DNA from: Cystobacter fuscus | GTDB taxonomy: Bacteria > Myxococcota > Myxococcia > Myxococcales > Myxococcaceae | NCBI RefSeq assembly: GCF_002305875.1 | Contig: NZ_CP022098.1 | Coordinates: 10,292,001 to 10,356,000 of the forward strand | Direction: 5' to 3' | Length of the DNA stretch: 64,000 nucleotides | Part shown: positions 31,177 to 41,760 of the stretch, one piece after another | Position numbering within the stretch: position 1 is the stretch's first letter | Layout of the letters: each line of letters opens with the position of its first letter | Made by a program: the position numbers and the translations under genes | Notes under the pieces: model-generated | Database searches by the model: none | Seen by the model: only the letters and a program-made list of their open reading frames with translations | What the model was told of the DNA's origin: nothing

Positions 31177-33141
31177 ATGGCCTATCCGAGGGAGCTGGTC
31201 GAGGCGATCCGCAGGCACCAGGTCGTCCCGTTCGTGGGTGCCGGCATCAGCATGGGCGTCAAACCAGGACTGTTCCCCTCCTGGCCCAGGCTCCTGGAGG
31301 GGCTGGTCGAACGGATGCGCGAGGAGGTCAGCCCGGAGGACGCCATCGCGGAGGTTCGCCAGCGCATCGACCAGGGGGACTACCTCACCGCGGCCGAGCG
31401 GGCCTTCCAGGAGCTGGGGGCCTATCGCTTCAACCGGTTCCTGCGCGAGCGCATCCGCCACAAGCGGCCAGACGACGTGGATCTGTCCGTGGTCCAGGCC
31501 CTCTGGGAACTCCAGGCCCCCGTGGTGGTCACCACCAACTACGACGACGTCCTGCTCTGGGGCCGAGGGGACGCCGAGCCCGTCTCCAATGACCAGGATG
31601 ACGAGCTGAACCTGCTGGACCTCCAGGCCTCTCCCTCGGACCCTCGCGTCTGGCACCTGCATGGCACCATCCACCGGCTCGCCACGCTGGTGCTCGCGGG
31701 CGCCGACTACAAGCGCCTCTATGGGGACTCGGCCCAGCCCGCCAGCTACTCCCACTACACGAGCGCGCTGGTGCGCCTGCGCGAGTGGATCCGCTCCAGG
31801 CCCTTTCTCTACATGGGCTTCAGCTTCAGCGACCCCTACGTGCTCAAGCAGCTCGAGCATGTCATCGGCATCACCCGGGGGCGGCAGGTTCCCAGCTTCG
31901 CGCTGATGAAGAAGGGACAGATTGATCGGGGAGCGCTCTGGCCGAAGTACAACATCCAGCTCGTCGAGTACGAGGACCACGGAGCGCCCCTGGCGGAGAG
32001 CCTGCGCGGACTCGCACGGGCGGCCTTTGGCGCCAGCCCCGCCCCCGCTCCCGTCTCCGTGCCGCAATGGCCGCCCGCGAGGCCCGCCGCCGCGCCCGGG
32101 GCCTTCCTGTCCAGCCCGGCCCCCGCGCCGGTGCCGCAAGCACCGCCCGTGATGCGCGACTCGAGCCCCGCGGCCCTCGCGTCCGGCCCGCCCCCCGCGC
32201 CGGTGCCGTCCCAGCCGTCCGTGGCCCGGCCCGCGCTGGTGGAGGAGTACGCGCGCATCCTCCGGAGCCAGCATCGGCTGGTGCTGCTCGCCCCCGAGGA
32301 CGGCGGGGCCCGGTCACTCGCCCGGGACGTGGCGGCGCGGTATGGGGAGCACGTCACCTGGCTGGCGCCCCCGAATGTCCCCGACTGCACCGAGGCCGAG
32401 TACTGCCGGGCGCTCCTGGGAGGAGCCTACGTCAAGGGCTTCGACGCGTTGGTGGAGCACCTGCGCGAGAAGGCCGAGCGGCTCGGGCGCGAGCACCTGA
32501 TCGTTCTGCGCAACGAGTGGGGGCCATTCGAGCACCTCAAACGGCTCGGCAACACGCTGCGCCGGATGATGGACGAGCCCTCGCCGGTGGACTTCCACTT
32601 CCTCATCGCGGGGGGCGAACGCTCGGCGTGGATCCTCCACAACGTGAAGAGCTTCTCCGTGTTCACGGGAGCCCCCCGGCGCGAGGTGCCGGATCTCACG
32701 GTGGAGGAAGTGGGACGCTATCTGGCCGCCCAGGGTGAGGACTCGGCACGACAAGCGAAGGACGTTCACGAAGCCACGGGAGGTCATCTGGGGCTGCTCC
32801 GGGAAGCCTTGAGCAGCGAAGGGCCGCGCGATGCGGATGCGATCACGGCACGGCTGGCGCGCAGCCCCTCGCTGCGAAGCACGGTGCGGGAGCGCCTGCT
32901 CCAGGACGAACGCAATGACTATCGAGGGGAGCGCAGTTGCCACGCGGTGCTCGAGAAGCTGCTTGCCGGACAACCCGTGGAGGCGCTGGAGCCGCTCGAT
33001 CACCGGGTGGAGTTCCCCGAGGTGCGGCTGTACTTCGCGGGGCTGGTGCGCACGGACGCGGCGGGAAGGACCGTGCCGCGATGCAGGGCCGTGGAACGCG
33101 TAGCCCGCGAGGCGCTGGCGCGGCAGGACGTGCGCCCCTGA
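31177..33141 (+). CDS. SIR2-domain protein with degenerate NTPase-like C-terminus
   Basis: 654 residues. The SIR2-like NAD-binding domain (about 1-285) has GAGIS at 21-25, TTNYDD at 119-124 and HLHG at 160-163, the motifs of the SIR2_2 group found in NAD-depleting defence proteins. A Pro/Ala-rich linker (about 286-355) separates a 300-residue C-terminal region that reads like a P-loop NTPase module. Its Walker-A position is APEDGGARSLA, with no Lys-Ser/Thr, and a Walker-B-like HLIVLRNEW follows. A strong GGGGGAG site precedes ATG 31177. A role in abortive infection by NAD hydrolysis is likely from the family but untested. It is divergent from mutM. Confidence 0.8.
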   Translation: MAYPRELVEAIRRHQVVPFVGAGISMGVKPGLFPSWPRLLEGLVERMREEVSPEDAIAEVRQRIDQGDYLTAAERAFQELGAYRFNRFLRERIRHKRPDDVDLSVVQALWELQAPVVVTTNYDDVLLWGRGDAEPVSNDQDDELNLLDLQASPSDPRVWHLHGTIHRLATLVLAGADYKRLYGDSAQPASYSHYTSALVRLREWIRSRPFLYMGFSFSDPYVLKQLEHVIGITRGRQVPSFALMKKGQIDRGALWPKYNIQLVEYEDHGAPLAESLRGLARAAFGASPAPAPVSVPQWPPARPAAAPGAFLSSPAPAPVPQAPPVMRDSSPAALASGPPPAPVPSQPSVARPALVEEYARILRSQHRLVLLAPEDGGARSLARDVAARYGEHVTWLAPPNVPDCTEAEYCRALLGGAYVKGFDALVEHLREKAERLGREHLIVLRNEWGPFEHLKRLGNTLRRMMDEPSPVDFHFLIAGGERSAWILHNVKSFSVFTGAPRREVPDLTVEEVGRYLAAQGEDSARQAKDVHEATGGHLGLLREALSSEGPRDADAITARLARSPSLRSTVRERLLQDERNDYRGERSCHAVLEKLLAGQPVEALEPLDHRVEFPEVRLYFAGLVRTDAAGRTVPRCRAVERVAREALARQDVRP

Positions 33142-33212
33142 GCCACTGACTAAATGGTGACGGGAGGAGTTCGGCAGGGAGCGAGCGCGGGAGGACGTTC
33201 CCCTCCGAGGGC

Positions 33213-33245
33213 ATGACCTGATAAGTGGGCGTCCCAGGAGGTCAT
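33213..33245. repeat. Inverted repeat upstream of the kinase gene
   Basis: ATGACCT (33213-33219) and AGGTCAT (33239-33245) are exact reverse complements separated by 19 bases. The repeat lies in the 148-base gap between the SIR2 gene and the kinase start. It could be an operator or a weak terminator. Confidence 0.35.
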
Positions 33246-33289
33246 CCTCACGTGTCGCCAGCAAGCCATCCATTCTCCGGGAGAGAGTC

Positions 33290-35005
33290 GTGAAGCCGCG
33301 GCGCCTGCCCGATCTGCGCCCGGGCACCGAGATCGAGGGGATGGTGGTGCAATCCTTCCTGGGGGCCGGTGGCTACGGCACCGTGTACCTGGCCAGGCAG
33401 ATGAACTCGGGACGTTTGTGCGCCGTGAAATTCATTCCCATGGGGAGCGCGGAGGCATGGGGACAACGCGAGTTCGCCATCCTCTTGCGGCTACAGCACC
33501 TCAACCTCGTCTCCTTGGGAGGGTGGGGCTACTGGCCCGAGGAGCGGCACGAGTACCTGTGGCTGCGGCTCGCATACATCCCGGGAAAAACCCTGGACGA
33601 GTGGGCCTGGGAGCACCATCCCGACGCGTGGACGGCCGCTGGGAAGATCCTGGGCGTGGGCCGGGGATTGGCGGTGGCGCACCATGCCCAGGTGGTGCAC
33701 CGGGACGTCAAGGAGGCCAACATCCTGGTGCGAGAGGGCGATGGCGAAGCGGTGCTGGTGGACTTCGGAGCTGGCCACTACGCACGAGCGCCTACCATCA
33801 CCCACGGCATGTTCCCTCCGGGCACGCTCGAGTACCGCAGCCCCGAGGCCTGGCGCTTCCGGCTCGAACACGCCCACGACAAGGGAGCTCGCTACCGGGC
33901 GGGTCCCGCCGATGACCTGTACGCCCTCGGGGTGGTGCTCTACTGGCTGCTCACGTGGCGCCATCCCTTCGGGGTGACGGAAGACGAGGACTCCATTCGG
34001 GCCATCATCGAGACGCCTCCCCTGCCCCCGCACATCGTCAACCCGCGCGTCCCCAAGGCCCTGAGCGCCGTGTGCCTGAAGCTGCTGGAGAAGAGCCCCG
34101 AGAACCGCTACCCGAGCGCCGTGGCCCTGTGCGAGGCGCTGGAGACCCTACGGGCGCAGGCAGATGACACCTGGAGGGTTCCCTTACAGGACAGGCCTCG
34201 CCCACAGCAGAGGCGCGAGGGACTCCCGCGCTGGCCGAGTGGGAAGGCGCTTCGCCGGAGCGTGCTCTGGGGGGGATTGGTCCTGGGCAGTGTGGTGGTC
34301 GGCTGGGCTGCCCTACGCTCGACGTCGTCTGGACTCCTCCCCACGCAAGGGATTGCTTCCGGACGGGAAGTGGCGTCCTCGGGGCCCCTACCGGAAGCTG
34401 ACGGGACCGCGGCAACACCCCCCGCGGCCGCCGCCCCTTCCGCGGCATCGACCCAGGACGACGCCCCCGTGAACAAGCAGAAGACAGACCGAATCTCGGA
34501 TGACAGGAAGCAGAAGGCGAAGGTCGCCACTCGAGGTGCGTGCGCGGGCCTCGTGGGAGTGGCGTTGCAGGCCTGCGTCGGTGCGCAGCAGCAAGTGGCA
34601 CCCAAGCGTCCTCCTCCGCCCGAGGAATGCCCGCCAGGCGCCGTCGAGGCAATGACCGGCAGGTTGGGTCTGTATATTGGTGATGATTACGGCACCATAG
34701 TCAACCGGGAATACGGGGGGCCGCTCACCGTGCGTGAGGGAGAGGTCACCTTTTCCGTGTGGGGAGATCATGAGGGACTGGTGGACAAAACCCTTGTCTT
34801 GGGTCGGCTTTATCTGGTGCCAGGACGCGTCTATGGCCGCTTCACCCGGGTCATCCTGCCCACGGGCGAAAGCTACCCTGTCTGCATGGAACTCTGGGAA
34901 GGTTCGGACCGGTTGCTCGGCTCGCGATTGGAGAAGGGGAGTACGCCGGACAACGTCCTGATCCACTCGCTTGAGCGGCTGATGGCCGTGAAGCGCTTCA
35001 AGTAA
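33290..35005 (+). CDS. Membrane-anchored Ser/Thr protein kinase
   Basis: 571 residues. The Hanks-type kinase domain (about 18-285) has the Gly loop GAGGYGTVY, ATP Lys in CAVKFIP, catalytic loop VHRDVKEANIL and VDFGAG in place of DFG-x. A Pro-rich juxtamembrane segment leads to one membrane helix (about 325-342, VLWGGLVLGSVVVGWAAL). The external part has a second hydrophobic stretch (CAGLVGVALQACVG) and ends in a beta-rich domain of about 120 residues. GTG 33290 follows GGGAGAG. The downstream DUF2381-type gene starts five bases after the stop. This pairing recurs in myxobacterial genomes; the signal sensed is unknown. Confidence 0.88.
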   Translation: MKPRRLPDLRPGTEIEGMVVQSFLGAGGYGTVYLARQMNSGRLCAVKFIPMGSAEAWGQREFAILLRLQHLNLVSLGGWGYWPEERHEYLWLRLAYIPGKTLDEWAWEHHPDAWTAAGKILGVGRGLAVAHHAQVVHRDVKEANILVREGDGEAVLVDFGAGHYARAPTITHGMFPPGTLEYRSPEAWRFRLEHAHDKGARYRAGPADDLYALGVVLYWLLTWRHPFGVTEDEDSIRAIIETPPLPPHIVNPRVPKALSAVCLKLLEKSPENRYPSAVALCEALETLRAQADDTWRVPLQDRPRPQQRREGLPRWPSGKALRRSVLWGGLVLGSVVVGWAALRSTSSGLLPTQGIASGREVASSGPLPEADGTAATPPAAAAPSAASTQDDAPVNKQKTDRISDDRKQKAKVATRGACAGLVGVALQACVGAQQQVAPKRPPPPEECPPGAVEAMTGRLGLYIGDDYGTIVNREYGGPLTVREGEVTFSVWGDHEGLVDKTLVLGRLYLVPGRVYGRFTRVILPTGESYPVCMELWEGSDRLLGSRLEKGSTPDNVLIHSLERLMAVKRFK

Positions 35006-35010
35006 GCCCG

Positions 35011-35907
35011 ATGCCCTCCTTGCCTCTTGCGTCCCTCCTCTCGCTGGTGTTGAGCACAGACGTCGGCGACACAGCGCGCCCACACCTCCTCGACTGCATG
35101 GGGGAATCCTTTGGTGTCGAGCTGTCCGCCGAGCCCGGAAGCAGAGCAGCGAAGGTATGCATCCATCCAGGGTCCGGCACGCTGTTCCTCTTCGATTCAC
35201 CTCTGCTCGCGAAGAGTGTGGAGGTGCAACAGCGAGAGCGTTTCGTGGATGTGGCCGTCGGGAACCGCAGCATCACGCTCATGCCACCAACGGACATTCA
35301 GCCCGGTGAGCGATTTTCGGTGCAGGTGCGCTTCGCGGATGACGTGCCCCCCACGAGCGCGACTTTCGAGTTGGTTGCCCATCCCTCCTGGGCCGCGAAA
35401 CAGGTGTCGGTGGTCCACCCCCCCGTCGGCGTGAAGAACTGCCCAGAGGAGCCACGAACCGGGGGTCATGGTCCAGGCCTCACGGGGCTGCTTGCCGAGG
35501 GGGTCATTGCACAGGCTGGGACCGGCGTGGAGGCCAAAGACCTCTCAAAGGAAAATACCTGCCCCACGGGGCAGGTGATCTCCTGGGGACGGATCTTCAG
35601 CTATCTCTCCACGACCTCACGAAAACAAGCAGGACAGCCCTTGCTGCGATTGGCTTTGGCCGTGGAGCTGAGCAACCACGGGATGACCGCCTGGATGCCC
35701 ACGCGTGCGGCGCTGGGCAGAGCGGGCCAGAGGGCGAAGGAGCTGAGCGTCTGGACAGCCAGACCCCTTCCCCCTGGGACATCCAGGCACTGGGTCATGA
35801 TGGAGACGGAGCAAACGGAGGACGAGGCACGGCAGGTCTATACCCTCGACATCTGGGATGACAGCGGGAGCCGCCGCGTCTCGATAGGACACGTGGCCTT
35901 CCCCTGA
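35011..35907 (+). CDS. DUF2381-family (TIGR02268-type) secreted protein
   Basis: 298 residues. It has a weak signal-like N-terminus (PSLPLASLLSLVLS). The body matches the myxobacterial paralogous family: FDSPLLAKSVEVQQRERF, ITLMPPTDIQPGERFSVQVRFADD, FELVAHPSWAAKQVSV, and near the end a W...RHWVMMETEQT segment. The fold looks all-beta and envelope-located. The family typically sits directly after a kinase gene, as here, suggesting a sensory partner for the kinase. Function is unknown. Confidence 0.8.
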   Translation: MPSLPLASLLSLVLSTDVGDTARPHLLDCMGESFGVELSAEPGSRAAKVCIHPGSGTLFLFDSPLLAKSVEVQQRERFVDVAVGNRSITLMPPTDIQPGERFSVQVRFADDVPPTSATFELVAHPSWAAKQVSVVHPPVGVKNCPEEPRTGGHGPGLTGLLAEGVIAQAGTGVEAKDLSKENTCPTGQVISWGRIFSYLSTTSRKQAGQPLLRLALAVELSNHGMTAWMPTRAALGRAGQRAKELSVWTARPLPPGTSRHWVMMETEQTEDEARQVYTLDIWDDSGSRRVSIGHVAFP

Positions 35908-35977
35908 ATCAGGCGCCAGTAGCATCGCCGAGCAGGTCGCCGTCTCGGAGCTGTCGCCCTATCAGGTATCCGGTGGC

Positions 35978-37015
35978 GTGAAGGACGACCACCTGTTCTT
36001 CGGCCGCGAGCGCGAGGTGCGCGCCATCGCGGACCGGACCTCGCGCAACTTCCTCGTGGTGGGCCAGCGGCAGATGGGCAAGAGCAGCCTCCTGCTCGCC
36101 GTCCTGCGCCGACTCCAGGCCCGCGCGGACGTGGACGTGCGCTACCTCGAACTGTCCGATGCGGACCTGCACCGCCGGCTCGCACGTGAGCAGAAGGCCC
36201 TCCTCCCAGGGGACGCGCTTCCCCCCTTCATGGATCTCGCCTCGGGAACGGCCTCCCGGCCCCGGGTGTGGCTCATCAACGAGGCGGACGGCTTCATCCA
36301 GGCGGATGTGCGGGCGAACTACCCGGTGGTGCAGGCCATGCGCGCGCTGTCCGAGGAAGGCCGGGCCTACTTCGTCCTCGCGGGCTTCTGGGACCTGTAC
36401 CAGGCCGTGGTGCTCGACGAGCGGCAACCGCTGCGCAACTTCGGCGAGCACCTCCGGCTGGAGCCACTGGACGCGCGCTCCGCGCTGGCGCTGGTCACCG
36501 AGCCGCTCGCCGCCCTGGGACTGCCGTGGGATGCGCCCACCACGCCCGAGCACCTGCTCCAGCAGGCGGGATGCCGCGCGAACCTGCTCGTGCTCGCCTG
36601 CAAGGCGCTGGTGGAGACCCTGCCCCCCGAGGCGCACGTGCTCACCCGCGCGCATCTGGAGCGTGTGCTGCACGAGGACAAGGATCTGCGCGATCAATGC
36701 CGCCGCTGGCGTGGAGACCACCCGCTCCATCGAGCCGTGGTCCGCCAGGCACTCCTGCGCGATCGCCCCACCCGGGACGAGGTCCGGCAAGCCCTCAAGG
36801 CGCGGGGAACCAACATCTCCGCCGTCGACTTCGACGAAGCCATGGACCACCGGGAGCTGAGCTACGTGCTGGTGCCAGACGGAGAGGGGCGTCTGTATTG
36901 CCCCGTGCCACTCATGCGGCGCTACATCGAATCCGAACGCGGGCTGGAGACAGGACTCGCCGAGGATCTCGATGACCTCCGCCGGGGCTTCTCCGAGGTG
37001 CCTCCGCCGGCCTGA
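35978..37015 (+). CDS. AAA-type ATPase, probably truncated at the N-terminus
   Basis: 345 residues from GTG 35978. The sequence opens almost directly on FFGREREVRAI and the Walker A motif GQRQMGKSS; Walker B is VWLINEAD. LRLEPLDARSALALV and the following helices are typical of the STAND/AAA group, and a winged-helix-like end (YVLVPDGEGRLYCPVPLMRRY) closes it. The frame is already open from 35888, and the codons before GTG (SELSPYQ then VSGG) look like the linker that precedes this module in larger proteins. An N-terminal effector or sensor domain has probably been lost at the junction with the kinase-DUF2381 pair. Confidence 0.7.
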   Translation: MKDDHLFFGREREVRAIADRTSRNFLVVGQRQMGKSSLLLAVLRRLQARADVDVRYLELSDADLHRRLAREQKALLPGDALPPFMDLASGTASRPRVWLINEADGFIQADVRANYPVVQAMRALSEEGRAYFVLAGFWDLYQAVVLDERQPLRNFGEHLRLEPLDARSALALVTEPLAALGLPWDAPTTPEHLLQQAGCRANLLVLACKALVETLPPEAHVLTRAHLERVLHEDKDLRDQCRRWRGDHPLHRAVVRQALLRDRPTRDEVRQALKARGTNISAVDFDEAMDHRELSYVLVPDGEGRLYCPVPLMRRYIESERGLETGLAEDLDDLRRGFSEVPPPA

Positions 37016-37023
37016 GGTGCCGC

Positions 37024-37040
37024 AGGGGATGGCATCCCCT
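37024..37040 (+). terminator. Hairpin after the ATPase gene
   Basis: AGGGGAT (37024-37030) and ATCCCCT (37034-37040) form a perfect 7-bp stem with a 3-base loop, nine bases after the ATPase stop. No T run follows, so termination is uncertain. Confidence 0.35.
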
Positions 37041-37049
37041 CCCGGAGCC

Positions 37050-37099
37050 AGGAAGCCCCGCTCTGGCACGAGCAGTCCAGACACCCACTCGCGGCACAC
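37050..37099 (-). pseudogene. Fossil of an ECF sigma factor cysteine-rich tail
   Basis: This 50-base stretch matches 41091-41140, the 3' end of the intact sigma factor gene, at 43 of 50 positions in the same orientation. On the minus strand it still reads CAASGCLDCSCQSGAS against CAASGCLDCSCRSDAS in the intact gene. Three of the differences fall in synonymous positions of Ser and Cys codons. The stop codon TGA has become TGG and no upstream part of the gene remains. It is a remnant of a second copy. Confidence 0.7.
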
Positions 37100-37267
37100 T
37101 TGGACTCGTACCGGGCTGCTGCTCCGTACAGGGAGGGTTGTCGGGAGCGATGCCGGGGTTGATGGCGTCGAGCCCTCCTTCGCGAAGAAGACCGCTGCTT
37201 TTTTCAAATTGACGTGGCTCTCGGCCCCCTCTACTCCTGGGCTCAGTCCCCCTATTGGAGCTGCGGA

Positions 37268-38707
37268 GTGTCTACCCGTCTTGTTGGTGCGCGTCCGAAG
37301 GGCACGCGGCGTCTCTGGTTGGGATCTTGGGCATGCATCGTTCTCTTCCTCCACGCCGCATGCGCCACGAGCGGTACTCGGCACGGAATGCGGGAGAGTT
37401 CCCAGCACGGGTCCCCAACACCTCGTTTCCAGGAGGGCGCCCGGCCGCCCACAGATGAAGCGGAGGCCGAGGCGGCGGAGGACAAGCCGGCGGACGAGCA
37501 GATTCGCCTCTCCCTGCCCACCCGATTCGGGGCCGTGCGGGTGAGCGACTTCGAACTCAACGAAGCCCTCACCACCCTGGTGCTGAACATGCCGCTGCGG
37601 GTGGCCGACTCCCACGTCCCGTTCTACCTCCACCGGAAGTTGGCGCTGGCCTCCGTCCCGCTCACGGGCGAGGAGTGGCGTACCCCATTGGCGCGGTCCT
37701 ACGGGGGGTTCTGCGAGCGGCGAGGCACGTCGGGCGACTGCCTGGAGTTGTTCAAGGACGGGCCGGGCCTGGACGGTGAGGACAAGCGTGACCTCGCCCT
37801 GGCGCTTTCCTTGGATGCGGCGCTGGAGGCCCGGGACGCGCAGCTGCGCGGCATGTTCTCCACGACGCAGCTCTGGACGACGCTGAGCCTCACTCTCATT
37901 GGATACATGGCCCTGGTCGCGGCGCCGGAGCCCGTTTCTAAAGGTGTCGCCGCGGCACTGGCCCTGCTCATGTGGGGGTACCTCGGGTGGGAGCTCTTCG
38001 ACCTGGTGCGGGCCTACTTTCAGCTGTGGGAGGAGGCGGCGGAGGCCAGCACGTTCGCGGAACTGCGCGAGGCGGGTAACCGCTTCGGCAAGGTCATCGG
38101 GCCCAACAGCGTGCGGATTCTCCTCCTGCTGGGCACAGCGGCGGTGGGGGAGACGGCGGCGCTCGTGTCCAAGGCCCCAACGCTGCCGGGCTTCGCGAAA
38201 GCCGCCGGTGCACTCAAATCGCATGCCGGCATCCGAGACGTGCTCACGGCCGTGCAGGAAGCGGACAAGGTGAAGGTCGCCGTGGCCGAGGGCACCTTCA
38301 GTGTCGTCCTGCCCGCCAACGCCGTGAGCATGGCCGCGAGGAGGTCTCCCGCCGGAGCGGACCCGCCCAAGAAGAAGCCGGAGGTGCATCACATCGCGAC
38401 TGTCGAGAACAGCAAGTCCACTGCGCGAGGCGGGCCATGGACGCCGCTATTCAAGAAACTCTTCAACAAGGCGGGCATGTCGATGGAGGACCCGGCCAAT
38501 ACGATCCCGCTCCTTGGGCACAAGGGGCCTCATCCTGAGGAGTACCATCAACTCGTTCATAAGCACCTGAAAGGTGCGACGGACAAGTGCTCCAACCAGC
38601 AGGAGTGCGCGCTTGCATTGAGGCAAGCACTTCGGCAGCTGGCCGAGGAGATCATCAGAGAGGGAAGCAGGCTCAACAAGCTGCTAACCAGCGGGGCATC
38701 ACCCTAG
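37268..38707 (+). CDS. Sit-like polymorphic toxin lipoprotein with AHH-type nuclease domain
   Basis: 479 residues. The N-terminus has basic residues, a hydrophobic core and HAAC, giving a lipidated Cys32. An acidic linker leads to a conserved central region with two or three membrane-inserting helices (about 205-255, LIGYMALVAAPEPVSKG). The C-terminal nuclease-like domain begins at VHHIATVENSKS (His374-His375) and has GMSMEDPANTIPLLGHKGPHPEEYHQLVHKHL-type sequence with paired His, as in AHH/HNH toxins. This layout matches SitA lipoprotein toxins spread by outer-membrane exchange in Myxococcus. GTG 37268 is chosen for its GGAG site and signal; GTG 37214 is possible. The immunity gene begins eight bases after the stop. 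Confidence 0.75.
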   Translation: MSTRLVGARPKGTRRLWLGSWACIVLFLHAACATSGTRHGMRESSQHGSPTPRFQEGARPPTDEAEAEAAEDKPADEQIRLSLPTRFGAVRVSDFELNEALTTLVLNMPLRVADSHVPFYLHRKLALASVPLTGEEWRTPLARSYGGFCERRGTSGDCLELFKDGPGLDGEDKRDLALALSLDAALEARDAQLRGMFSTTQLWTTLSLTLIGYMALVAAPEPVSKGVAAALALLMWGYLGWELFDLVRAYFQLWEEAAEASTFAELREAGNRFGKVIGPNSVRILLLLGTAAVGETAALVSKAPTLPGFAKAAGALKSHAGIRDVLTAVQEADKVKVAVAEGTFSVVLPANAVSMAARRSPAGADPPKKKPEVHHIATVENSKSTARGGPWTPLFKKLFNKAGMSMEDPANTIPLLGHKGPHPEEYHQLVHKHLKGATDKCSNQQECALALRQALRQLAEEIIREGSRLNKLLTSGASP

Positions 38708-38715
38708 GAGTCCTC

Positions 38716-39963
38716 ATGACGGGACTGTACTTCGATCTGTTCGATGACGTTTACATCCCGGGTCGCTGGCACCTGGATGATCCCGTGGATCAGCAGGGGC
38801 AGGAGATTCGTACCTGGCAGTTCGTACGGGGTGATCCCGCTCACGTCGAAGGGCGGATCCGGATACCCATCTATGTCCCGGGCAGGCCGCTCGACTTCTC
38901 CTTGTTGGCGGGTGCAACCATCCCCGTGGTTCATGCCAGGGTGGCGGCCATGTTCGCCGAGCTGGCGCCTGGTGATGTGCAGCTGATTCCGGTGGAGGTG
39001 GACGGGCAGAGCGAACCGTACGTCCTGCTCAACATCACGCGTGTCGTGAAGTGCATCGACGATGAGGCATCCGACGAGGTGCGCCACTGGGAGCCGGAGG
39101 ATGGCAGGCCCGACGAGACAGGCCAGTACAGGTCCGTGATTGGCATGCGCATCGACCCCTCGAAAGTGGGCGATGCCCGAGTGTTCCGTACCTGGGGTTG
39201 GAGCCCGGCCATCATCATCTCCGAGGACATCAAGCAGGCCCTGGAGCGCATGGGAGCAACGGGGGCGAAGTTCAAGGAGGTCACCGGCCCGAGCGCCATC
39301 AGCGCGGAGGAACGCGCGCGGGACCAGAAAAGCCGCGAGTTGTTCGAGCAGGCGGACACCGCTCGTGAGGCCGCCTGGAGTTCCTTGGGGTCGCTGGACA
39401 AGGAGGTCTTCATGCCCATCGCCATGAGCGGCTCGTGGCCGGGCCATCGGCAGCTCTGGCGCGTCATCCGTCGCGAGGCGGGGCGTACGCTGCTGGTCAC
39501 GCACGGGCTCTCGGACCCCTTCATCGAGCGCCTGGAGCCCTCGGTGGGCTTCGGTCTGGAGCTCGCCCTGGAAGTGGACGCGGCCGTGAAGGACATCTCC
39601 AAGGGGTGGCCCCTGCTGCTGTTGAACCGTGTGGCGGATGAAGTCGCCGAGCACGAGCAGGTACGCGAGAGCGTGAAGGCGGGCCTCTTCTCCATGGAGG
39701 TGTCCGGTAAGGGAATGCCCAAGTCGCTCGTCACCGAGGAGGGCAGGGTGGCCGTGCTGCTGGGCGTGGCGTCACGTACGCTGCCGAGTCACTTCCCCAC
39801 GCCGTATGGGGAGGTGAAGCTCGTCACCGTCAAGTCGCTGCTGCCCTCGGAGCTGGCGTACCTGCTGGAGCACGGCGCGGAGGGCCAGGCCGAGCTGGCA
39901 CGACGCTTCGCGGAGAACGGCGAGGAGCACCTGTCGCGTCTCAAAAGGAAGCCTGTGGCGTAG
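38716..39963 (+). CDS. Two-domain immunity protein (Imm11-like plus SUFU-like)
   Basis: 415 residues, soluble. Residues about 1-200 resemble the Imm11 family (DUF1629; the Myxococcus MXAN_0049 immunity protein): YFDLFDDVYIPGRWHLDDP, ARVAAMFAELAPGDVQLIPVEV, YVLLNITRVVKCIDDEAS and FRTWGWSPAIIISEDIKQAL. Residues about 220-410 resemble suppressor-of-fused-type immunity domains (GFGLELALEVDAAVKD, LLLLNRVADEV, VLLGVASRTLPSHFPTPYGEVKLVTVKSLLPSELAYLLEHG). AGGAG at 38706-38710 overlaps the toxin stop, giving tight coupling. It most likely neutralises the neighbouring nuclease toxin; two domains could mean protection against more than one toxin. Confidence 0.75.
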   Translation: MTGLYFDLFDDVYIPGRWHLDDPVDQQGQEIRTWQFVRGDPAHVEGRIRIPIYVPGRPLDFSLLAGATIPVVHARVAAMFAELAPGDVQLIPVEVDGQSEPYVLLNITRVVKCIDDEASDEVRHWEPEDGRPDETGQYRSVIGMRIDPSKVGDARVFRTWGWSPAIIISEDIKQALERMGATGAKFKEVTGPSAISAEERARDQKSRELFEQADTAREAAWSSLGSLDKEVFMPIAMSGSWPGHRQLWRVIRREAGRTLLVTHGLSDPFIERLEPSVGFGLELALEVDAAVKDISKGWPLLLLNRVADEVAEHEQVRESVKAGLFSMEVSGKGMPKSLVTEEGRVAVLLGVASRTLPSHFPTPYGEVKLVTVKSLLPSELAYLLEHGAEGQAELARRFAENGEEHLSRLKRKPVA

Positions 39964-39983
39964 CACGGCGCGGCGGCAGCTCC

Positions 39984-40068
39984 ATCTGCGCCCGGGCACC
40001 AAGATCGAGGGGATGGTGGTGCAACAACGCGAGTTCGCCATCCTCTTCATGATGGAGACGGAGCAAAC
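39984..40068 (+). pseudogene. In-frame mosaic fossil of the kinase-DUF2381 pair
   Basis: Three short blocks join without gaps: 39984-40024 matches the kinase start region 33312-33352 with one difference; 40024-40047 equals kinase 33463-33486; 40048-40068 equals DUF2381 positions 35796-35816. The kinase frame is kept throughout (LRPGTKIEGMVVQ, QREFAIL, then MMETEQT). It is the scar of a second kinase-DUF2381 cassette after large internal deletions. Confidence 0.75.
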
Positions 40069-40142
40069 CTCGCGCGCCGGAAATCGTCACAACGCGCCCG
40101 TGCCCCCTCTTCCCAGAGGGGACCTGCCACGGGAGATGCGGA

Positions 40143-41045
40143 ATGCGTCGTTCGGTGCGAATGATGGCCATGAGGGGGCTGGTCTGGCTGGGGAGCGTGG
40201 GGGCCGCGGTGCCTGGCCTCGCGAGCGCGGGCTCGATGGAGGACGGCACGCCGCCCGCCCTGGTCGTGGACCCATCGTCTTCCCGCCCGGGCGCCCAGCA
40301 GCCCATCCTGGGCGTCGTCATTCCCAATGACTCCGTGGACGTGAGCGCCCGCTTCGACTCCCGGCTGGAGCAGGTGGACGTCGAGGTCGGCCAGTCCGTC
40401 CACGAGGGGCAGGTGCTGGCCCGGCTCGACACGCGCTCACTCCAGCGGGAACTGGCCGCGGCCGAGGCCGCCCTCCAGGGTTCTCGTGCCGAGGAGCACG
40501 CCATCTCGCTCGCCCTCTCCGAGGCCCATGCCAACAGGCGCCCCTCCTTCACCCCGCGCGCGCTGAAGCTGGGCGTCTACTCGCGGGAGGAGCTGGACAG
40601 AATGAGCGACGAGGAGAGCGCCGCCGCCGCTCGCATGCAGGCGGCACGGGTCCAGACACTCCAGCGCCAGGCCCAGGTGACCGGGCTGAGACAGCACCTC
40701 GAGGACGCCACGCTCGTGGCGCCCTTCGCTGGCGTGGTGACTTCCCGGCTCGTCGGCCCCGGCACACACCTCTCCGCAGGGCAACCCGTGCTCCGGCTGC
40801 TCGGCAGTGGCGAATGGAGGGTGCGCTTCGCCGTCACCGAGGAAGAGGCAGGCGACTTCCAACCAGGCGCACTCGTGGAGCTGAAGGTGCTCCAAGGAGA
40901 GCTCTCCCTCCAGGGAGCCGTGGAGAGCATCTCACCCGAGGTGGACGCCGCGGCCCGCCTGCTCTTCGCCACCGCGATGTTCAGCCAACCACCGCCACGC
41001 GAGGTCTCCACGGGACTGCTCGTCCACGTCCGCGCGAGACCCTAG
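40143..41045 (+). CDS. Orphan HlyD/RND-type periplasmic adaptor protein
   Basis: 300 residues. After a signal peptide (about 1-30) the order is a lipoyl half with VDVSARFDSRLEQVDVEVGQSVHEGQVLARLD, a short helical hairpin (AAAEAALQGSRAEEHAISLAL), the second lipoyl half DATLVAPFAGVVTSRLVGPGTHLSAGQPVLRL and a beta-barrel. It is shorter than most efflux adaptors and lacks the end of the membrane-proximal domain. No RND pump or outer-membrane channel is adjacent. GGAGATG before ATG 40143 is a good ribosome site. It converges with a CorE-like sigma factor. Confidence 0.78.
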   Translation: MRRSVRMMAMRGLVWLGSVGAAVPGLASAGSMEDGTPPALVVDPSSSRPGAQQPILGVVIPNDSVDVSARFDSRLEQVDVEVGQSVHEGQVLARLDTRSLQRELAAAEAALQGSRAEEHAISLALSEAHANRRPSFTPRALKLGVYSREELDRMSDEESAAAARMQAARVQTLQRQAQVTGLRQHLEDATLVAPFAGVVTSRLVGPGTHLSAGQPVLRLLGSGEWRVRFAVTEEEAGDFQPGALVELKVLQGELSLQGAVESISPEVDAAARLLFATAMFSQPPPREVSTGLLVHVRARP

Positions 41046-41088
41046 AAAACAGCCCCGTGAGAAGCGGCTTCGTGCCCACAGGGGTCGC

Positions 41089-41715
41089 TCAGGAAGCGTC
41101 GCTCCGGCACGAACAGTCCAGGCACCCGCTCGCGGCGCACGCGCCACAGGTGTGCTGGAGCCTCGTCTTGAGCGCCTGACGGGCCCGGTGCAGGCGGACC
41201 ATCGCGTTGTTGGGAGTGATCCCCGCCTCGTGCGCCACCTCGGAGACGGACTGCTCCTCCAGGTCCACCCGCCGCACCATGCGTGCGTACTCGGGCTTGA
41301 GCGTGGGCAACACGCCATGCAGGCAGGCACAGACCTTCGAGCCGGCTCCCGGCTCCGGCTGCACGGCGAGGGGCTGTCGGGCCTCGCGCTCGAGTGCCCG
41401 GGCTTCCGCGGCGCGGTGCCGGTAGTGGTCGGTCAGGGCATTGCGCAGCAGGCGGTAGAACCAGGCCACCGCGCGCTCCTCGTCCCGCAGCGCCGCGCTC
41501 TTCTCGAGCGCCTTGACGTAGGCGGCCTGGAGCAGTTCCTCCACCACGGCCTCGCTGTCCACCCGGCTCGCCAGGAAGGAGGCGAAGCGGTCCCGATGGT
41601 CGAGCAGGATCCGCAGCGCCTCCTCGCGCGCCGGCTCGGTGTCGGACGGGGCGCTGGAGGGAGGAGGAGGGCTTCGCATGTCGACCGTGGGGAAGAGGAC
41701 CCGCTGGAGCATCAT
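41089..41715 (-). CDS. ECF sigma factor with C-terminal cysteine-rich domain (CorE-like)
   Basis: 208 residues. Sigma-2 region (HRDRFASFLASRVDSEAVVEELLQAAYVKAL, AWFYRLLRNALTDHYR) and sigma-4 region (LEEQSVSEVAHEAGITPNNAMVRLHRAR) are intact. Two Cys (VCAC) lie in the linker and five more in the tail CGACAASGCLDCSC. This pattern matches ECF44 sigma factors, of which Myxococcus CorE (copper) and CorE2 (cadmium/zinc) are controlled by direct metal binding rather than by an anti-sigma. No anti-sigma gene is adjacent, which fits. Start uncertain: ATG 41715, 41712 or 41679. Targets are probably metal-tolerance genes. Confidence 0.85.
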   Translation of the reverse strand: MMLQRVLFPTVDMRSPPPPSSAPSDTEPAREEALRILLDHRDRFASFLASRVDSEAVVEELLQAAYVKALEKSAALRDEERAVAWFYRLLRNALTDHYRHRAAEARALEREARQPLAVQPEPGAGSKVCACLHGVLPTLKPEYARMVRRVDLEEQSVSEVAHEAGITPNNAMVRLHRARQALKTRLQHTCGACAASGCLDCSCRSDAS

Positions 41716-41760
41716 ATAATCCGCGGACGGACGTGCCGCCCGGGCCTTACAGCCGGCCGC

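Follow-up and report, generated by a model that had tools for sequence, protein, structure and literature searches.

In serial replication slippage, the junction of a rearrangement reportedly consists of short collinear blocks from nearby that overlap little or not at all. Short-patch double illegitimate recombination, known from Acinetobacter, is said to place one patch of tens of genomic bases at an ectopic site, where it replaces recipient DNA. Serial replication slippage and template switching are treated for human rearrangements in one study (PMC2583991), and myxobacterial sitAI loci are frequent on mobile DNA according to passages of two further papers (PMC8546572, PMC5562445). The mosaic described below is like a decayed duplicated gene pair in its collinear blocks and in the order and strand of their sources, but differs from one in the shortness of the blocks, in the single mismatch and in that no intermediates were found. 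With the Acinetobacter process it shares tens of bases placed ectopically; that patch is said to be single and replacing, whereas here three collinear patches stand without a visible replaced segment. The likeness to serial replication slippage lies in the short, collinear, nearby copies with little or no overlap, the difference in that the process is described there for human genomes (PMC2583991), while the mosaic is bacterial and its mechanism is read from sequence alone. The surrounding locus resembles sitAI loci, with a SitA5 escort domain and an AHH nuclease beside an immunity gene, and adds a patchwork seam, a feature without mention in the sitAI passages of those papers (PMC8546572, PMC5562445).

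The window, i.e. the whole 64-kb stretch of Cystobacter fuscus DNA that was analysed, contains at 39984-40068 three abutting copies, collinear and on the same strand, of parts of a kinase-DUF2381 gene pair located 4-7 kb upstream. The copies, their source genes and the two genes that flank them are as follows.

33290..35005, plus strand: uninterrupted gene for a Ser/Thr protein kinase, from which blocks 1 and 2 derive (Pkinase, 107.2 bits against a cut-off of 31.7)
35011..35907, plus strand: DUF2381 (TIGR02268) gene, uninterrupted (TIGR02268, 124.9 bits, cut-off 76.15; PF09544); source of block 3
38587..39963, plus strand: SitI-type immunity gene, assigned by position and by the domains Imm11 and SUFU
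39984..40024, plus strand: block 1, copy of 33312-33352 (kinase codons 8-21), 40/41 bases identical
40024..40047, plus strand: block 2, copy of 33463-33486 (kinase), 24/24 identical, one-base overlap with block 1
40047..40068, plus strand: block 3, copy of 35795-35816 (DUF2381 gene), 22/22 identical, one-base overlap with block 2
40143..41045, plus strand: RND/HlyD-type adaptor gene (TIGR01730, 111.4 bits, cut-off 94.9)

The mosaic is an accurate observation and lies far beyond chance. BLAST E-values of the three blocks within the window are 9e-16, 5e-8 and 8e-7, and the 64 kb hold just three exact repeats of at least 20 bp, direct or inverted, all of which are the mosaic blocks. Comparison bore out the three-block structure and the source coordinates given in the original prediction, which had placed the third block correctly in the DUF2381 gene and drawn it one base short (21 bases, 35796-35816). 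As in a templated insertion, 84 of the 85 mosaic bases are identical to a template 4-7 kb away; as in a collapsed second pair, the order and strand of the sources are preserved. The sole mismatch, in block 1, is a base that differs from both the window's pair and the pair of the congener G003. The frames of kinase, kinase and DUF2381 gene are retained across the blocks (offsets of 111 and 2309 bp), so the joins do keep the reading frame, as had been claimed; two random junctions would do this in one case in nine.

The blocks overlap by a single A at the first junction and a single T at the second, which is not above chance. Among the 15 bases that precede the first junction, 11 agree in register with the kinase gene (P ~6e-4 for random pairs, in a comparison chosen post hoc). 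A first deletion at a repeated ACAA/CAA had been proposed here, and the sequence speaks against it: the sources read GTGCAA/TCC and GGGACAA/CGC (the slash marks the break) and the mosaic reads GTGCAACAACGC, so both CAA are present, no repeat was collapsed and the overlap is one A only.

The mosaic lies in a narrow seam. Two SitI paralogs found in the same genome are homologous up to 39982 (the alignment to a third ends at 39938), homology to an adaptor paralog of the same genome begins at 40075, and the mosaic fills this gap but for about six bases. That SitI arrived with a kinase remnant of its own was considered and rejected, as the two paralogs homologous up to 39982 carry no kinase sequence behind the stop.

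The reading preferred here, at about even probability, is that the 85 bp represent a non-functional junction scar, into which short lengths of the nearby pair were copied during a single event of repair or replication. When the SitI-adaptor seam was formed or repaired, the copying strand would have jumped back to the nearby kinase gene, taken 41 kinase bases, skipped 110 and taken 24, then skipped about 2.3 kb, picked up 22 bases of the DUF2381 gene and gone back to the adaptor side. Variants of this mechanism would be serial template switching and the capture of short pieces of single-stranded DNA. We infer both the copying mechanism and the single-event origin from the shortness of the blocks (41, 24 and 22 bp), the 1-bp overlaps, the one mismatch in 85 bases and the position exactly in the seam. 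Against one step stand the retained order, orientation and frame of the sources, as in a decayed copy, and the fact that deletions which leave islands do occur (kelch islands of 101 and 77 bp, a 14-bp sigma-gene stub in G003 and a 39-bp loss beside the pair, all described below). No intermediates for the one-step model were found in the genomes searched. Ku-dependent end joining with filler is unlikely, because no Ku gene was found: PF02735 has no match in the genome, and among 14 control genomes that of B. subtilis is matched.

A somewhat less probable, still serious alternative starts from a second kinase-DUF2381 pair, or from a tandem duplication that spanned about 6.7 kb between kinase and SitI; several deletions would have collapsed it to the mosaic. 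Collinear blocks on the same strand, in the same order and in frame are what such a remnant would leave, a tandem duplication of 33312-39983 would give the first junction for free, the pair lies at different loci in the two congeners, and island-leaving deletions are seen nearby. The junctions, however, lack the repeats expected of slippage deletions, and neither a second copy nor an intermediate was met in the same genome or in 194 others. Few deletions are an improbable route to 87 remaining bp, and otherwise many are needed: three islands of this total from the minimum number of random deletions have P = 6e-4 for a 2.76-kb unit and 2e-5 for a 6.67-kb tandem unit. In selection-free simulations with postulated distributions of deletion size and uniform breakpoints, at least three islands were present in 26-47% of the runs that ended at 60-100 bp when deletion sizes were log-uniform (mean of 11-29 deletions), and in 1/319 and 0/354 such runs when sizes were uniform. 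Gap counts from alignments of the genome with that of G003 (at least 600 bp long and at least 88% identical, mostly coding; 24,062 bp, 1,097 mismatches and 3 gaps of at least 10 bp) were left out of the argument.

Other adaptor loci bear on the same alternative. Among 12 of them, with at least 6 kb upstream read and none having a SitA/SitI pair at that place, no DUF2381 gene was detected at E <= 1e-6; kinase-like matches at 4 of the 12 are 31-39% identical and at least 2 kb away. A kinase-DUF2381 pair between immunity gene and adaptor, which had been suggested as something to look for in other strains, was seen at none of the 12. Of the proposed collapsed cassette, the part that stood is that the patch consists of kinase-DUF2381 sequence; the second pair itself is a possibility, and neither a full nor a partial one was seen between SitI and adaptor in any of the relatives. 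The direct copying of short pieces in one event explains these facts at least as well as a collapsed pair, and the one-step patch is, by a little, favoured.

Searches for further copies scored just the top candidates from an initial pass, so that weak partial copies could be missed. In the genome itself, the 85 bp match only themselves and the three sources at E <= 1e-3, a limit that a 22-bp exact match barely reaches (best 9 of 67 candidates). A genome search with a longer query did not report the source of block 3 and thus lacks the sensitivity to rule out 22-bp copies. The 85-bp query matches in 3 of 98 relatives (best 9 candidates per genome) and in 6 of 195 genomes of the phylum (best 4), the own genome being included in both counts. 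The mosaic as such was found in none of the 194 other genomes of the phylum set, which is without other strains of the species and for which the 4 best candidates per genome were scored; conservation of the 85 bp in distant strains, which was to have spoken against the mosaic reading, was therefore not seen. G003 has blocks 1 and 2 only apart from each other, within its intact kinase gene. An 83% gapped match occurs in four genomes of one genus and lies, in the one that was read, inside a short-chain dehydrogenase gene. Viral contigs yielded no match to an exact 25-mer spanning the first junction, and neither the own genome nor the searches of 98 relatives and 194 genomes gave an intermediate between full pair and mosaic. 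At all four block sites where the pair of G003 differs, the mosaic has the window's base, so it was most likely derived from this lineage's own kinase-DUF2381 pair.

A small expressed gene or regulatory element under selection is very improbable. The frame is open for 170 codons from stop to stop and an ATG lies at 40013, but the 105-aa ORF has no Pfam family and enters the adaptor gene out of frame, no sigma-70-type promoter or terminator match was obtained at 39900-40200 and no Rfam family at 36900-40300, and the mosaic is absent from the 194 other genomes (4 best candidates scored each). An assembly artefact is just as improbable: misassembly can affect short copies of sequence nearby, but the genome forms a single 12.35-Mb contig with a completeness of 100 and the mosaic has a base found in neither pair.

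Kinase-DUF2381 pairs turned out to be common when sought genome-wide, as had been recommended: at least 16 of the 23 DUF2381 genes have a kinase gene on the same strand within 2.5 kb. The 23 genes result from 26 matches after merging of split ones, the kinases from 55 matches at E <= 1e-20, which correspond to 53 kinases; 16 pairs is a lower bound because 150 of 247 kinase candidates were scored. In G003 the pair is found at another locus, with 93% DNA identity (best 3 candidates scored per genome). A limited literature search returned no paper on DUF2381, and a scan of genome contigs confirmed no named relatives of the kinase.

More interesting than the mosaic is a by-product, the history of its locus: the kinase-DUF2381 pair has broken a WD40-nSTAND gene beside a SIR2 gene, and the place at which the congener holds its pair is occupied by a SitA5 gene. 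The features concerned are listed below.

31177..33141, plus strand: SIR2-domain gene (PF13289, 76.7 bits), adjoining a WD40-nSTAND gene at 6/6 loci read
33163..35920, plus strand: kinase-DUF2381 segment, replacing about 1100 codons of the WD40-nSTAND gene
35918..37015, plus strand: what remains of the WD40-nSTAND gene at its 3' end, with 91% identity to the G003 ORF over residues 1174-1538
37049..37099, plus strand: sigma-tail island, 3' end of a sigma-70 family (ECF-type) gene, sharing 48/51 bases with that of G003 and 44/51 with the genome's own copy near 41090
37166..37207, minus strand: transposase island of 42 bp, sharp-edged, just before the SitA gene, 95% identical to a two-ORF transposase overlap elsewhere in the genome
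37214..38707, plus strand: SitA5-family toxin gene (NF050093, 179.3 bits, above the NCBIfam cut-off of 160) with AHH nuclease domain PF14412; the true start may lie further inside

A SIR2 gene followed by a long WD40-nSTAND gene is found in G003 and at five further loci, two of which are from MAGs. The WD40-nSTAND gene is an ORF of 1538 codons in G003, where the true start probably lies later, and an open frame of 1461-1567 codons at the other five. In the window, residues ~70 to 1173 are replaced by the kinase-DUF2381 pair and the 3' end alone remains. At the 3' edge of the segment that carries the pair, 15 bp (35906-35920) survive of the flank known from the G003 locus, following a 39-bp loss. 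As an observation apart, the SIR2 and WD40-nSTAND genes (31177-37015) may form a defence pair, a candidate status suggested by their adjacency at the loci of six relatives.

In G003 the nSTAND gene and the adaptor gene are neighbours, with a 14-bp stub of the sigma-gene tail between them; in the window the SitA5/SitI pair has its place between adaptor and nSTAND remnant. The insertion sequence behind the transposase island encodes HTH_Tnp_1 and rve domains and presumably belongs to IS3. At all 12 other adaptor loci, the adaptor is followed by a second membrane-fusion gene and a C39-peptidase ABC transporter gene (the latter running off the end of the stretch read at eight of them); these genes are missing in the window, where a minus-strand sigma factor gene comes directly after the adaptor (40143-41752). 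The genome's own counterpart of the locus that holds the pair in G003 (L102, 7364-9353 in its own numbering) has another SitA5-family gene (NF050093, 210.5 bits, cut-off 160), followed by a small gene that matches no family, and two islands of 101 and 77 bp that are 90% and 81% identical to the kelch gene flanking the pair in G003. The contrast in age between mosaic and kelch islands is modest, because the islands were measured against G003, from whose pair the mosaic differs by 5 mismatches in 87 compared bases, vs one in 85 from the window's pair. The view that such cassettes move and decay in this region agrees with these data: the pair occupies different loci in two congeners, and nearby genes have been reduced to short islands.

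The mosaic is ordinary rearrangement debris of a known kind and, alone, a minor finding. It is a clean rearrangement scar of several blocks, from a bacterium in which no Ku gene was detected; its locus has undergone reshuffling of a toxin-immunity pair, a kinase pair, a SIR2/WD40-nSTAND pair and an exporter. Should seams of this kind recur, the order and dates of cassette arrivals at kin-discrimination loci could be read from them. A speculative and unlikely generalization is that, in these bacteria, single template-switch events without Ku regularly fill the seams of mobile toxin cassettes with collinear copies, in several blocks, of neighbouring genes; if true, gene traffic at kin-discrimination loci would leave readable patchwork barcodes and occasionally new in-frame fusions.

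Two minor side observations remain. The SIR2 gene carries at 32033-32208 an imperfect tandem duplication (74%, ~100 bp). At another locus of the SitA/SitI family (L089, 8080-11130), a SitA/SitI paralog lies between a small gene and an apparent truncated copy of the 3' end of that gene, so that both flanks share about 20 bp.
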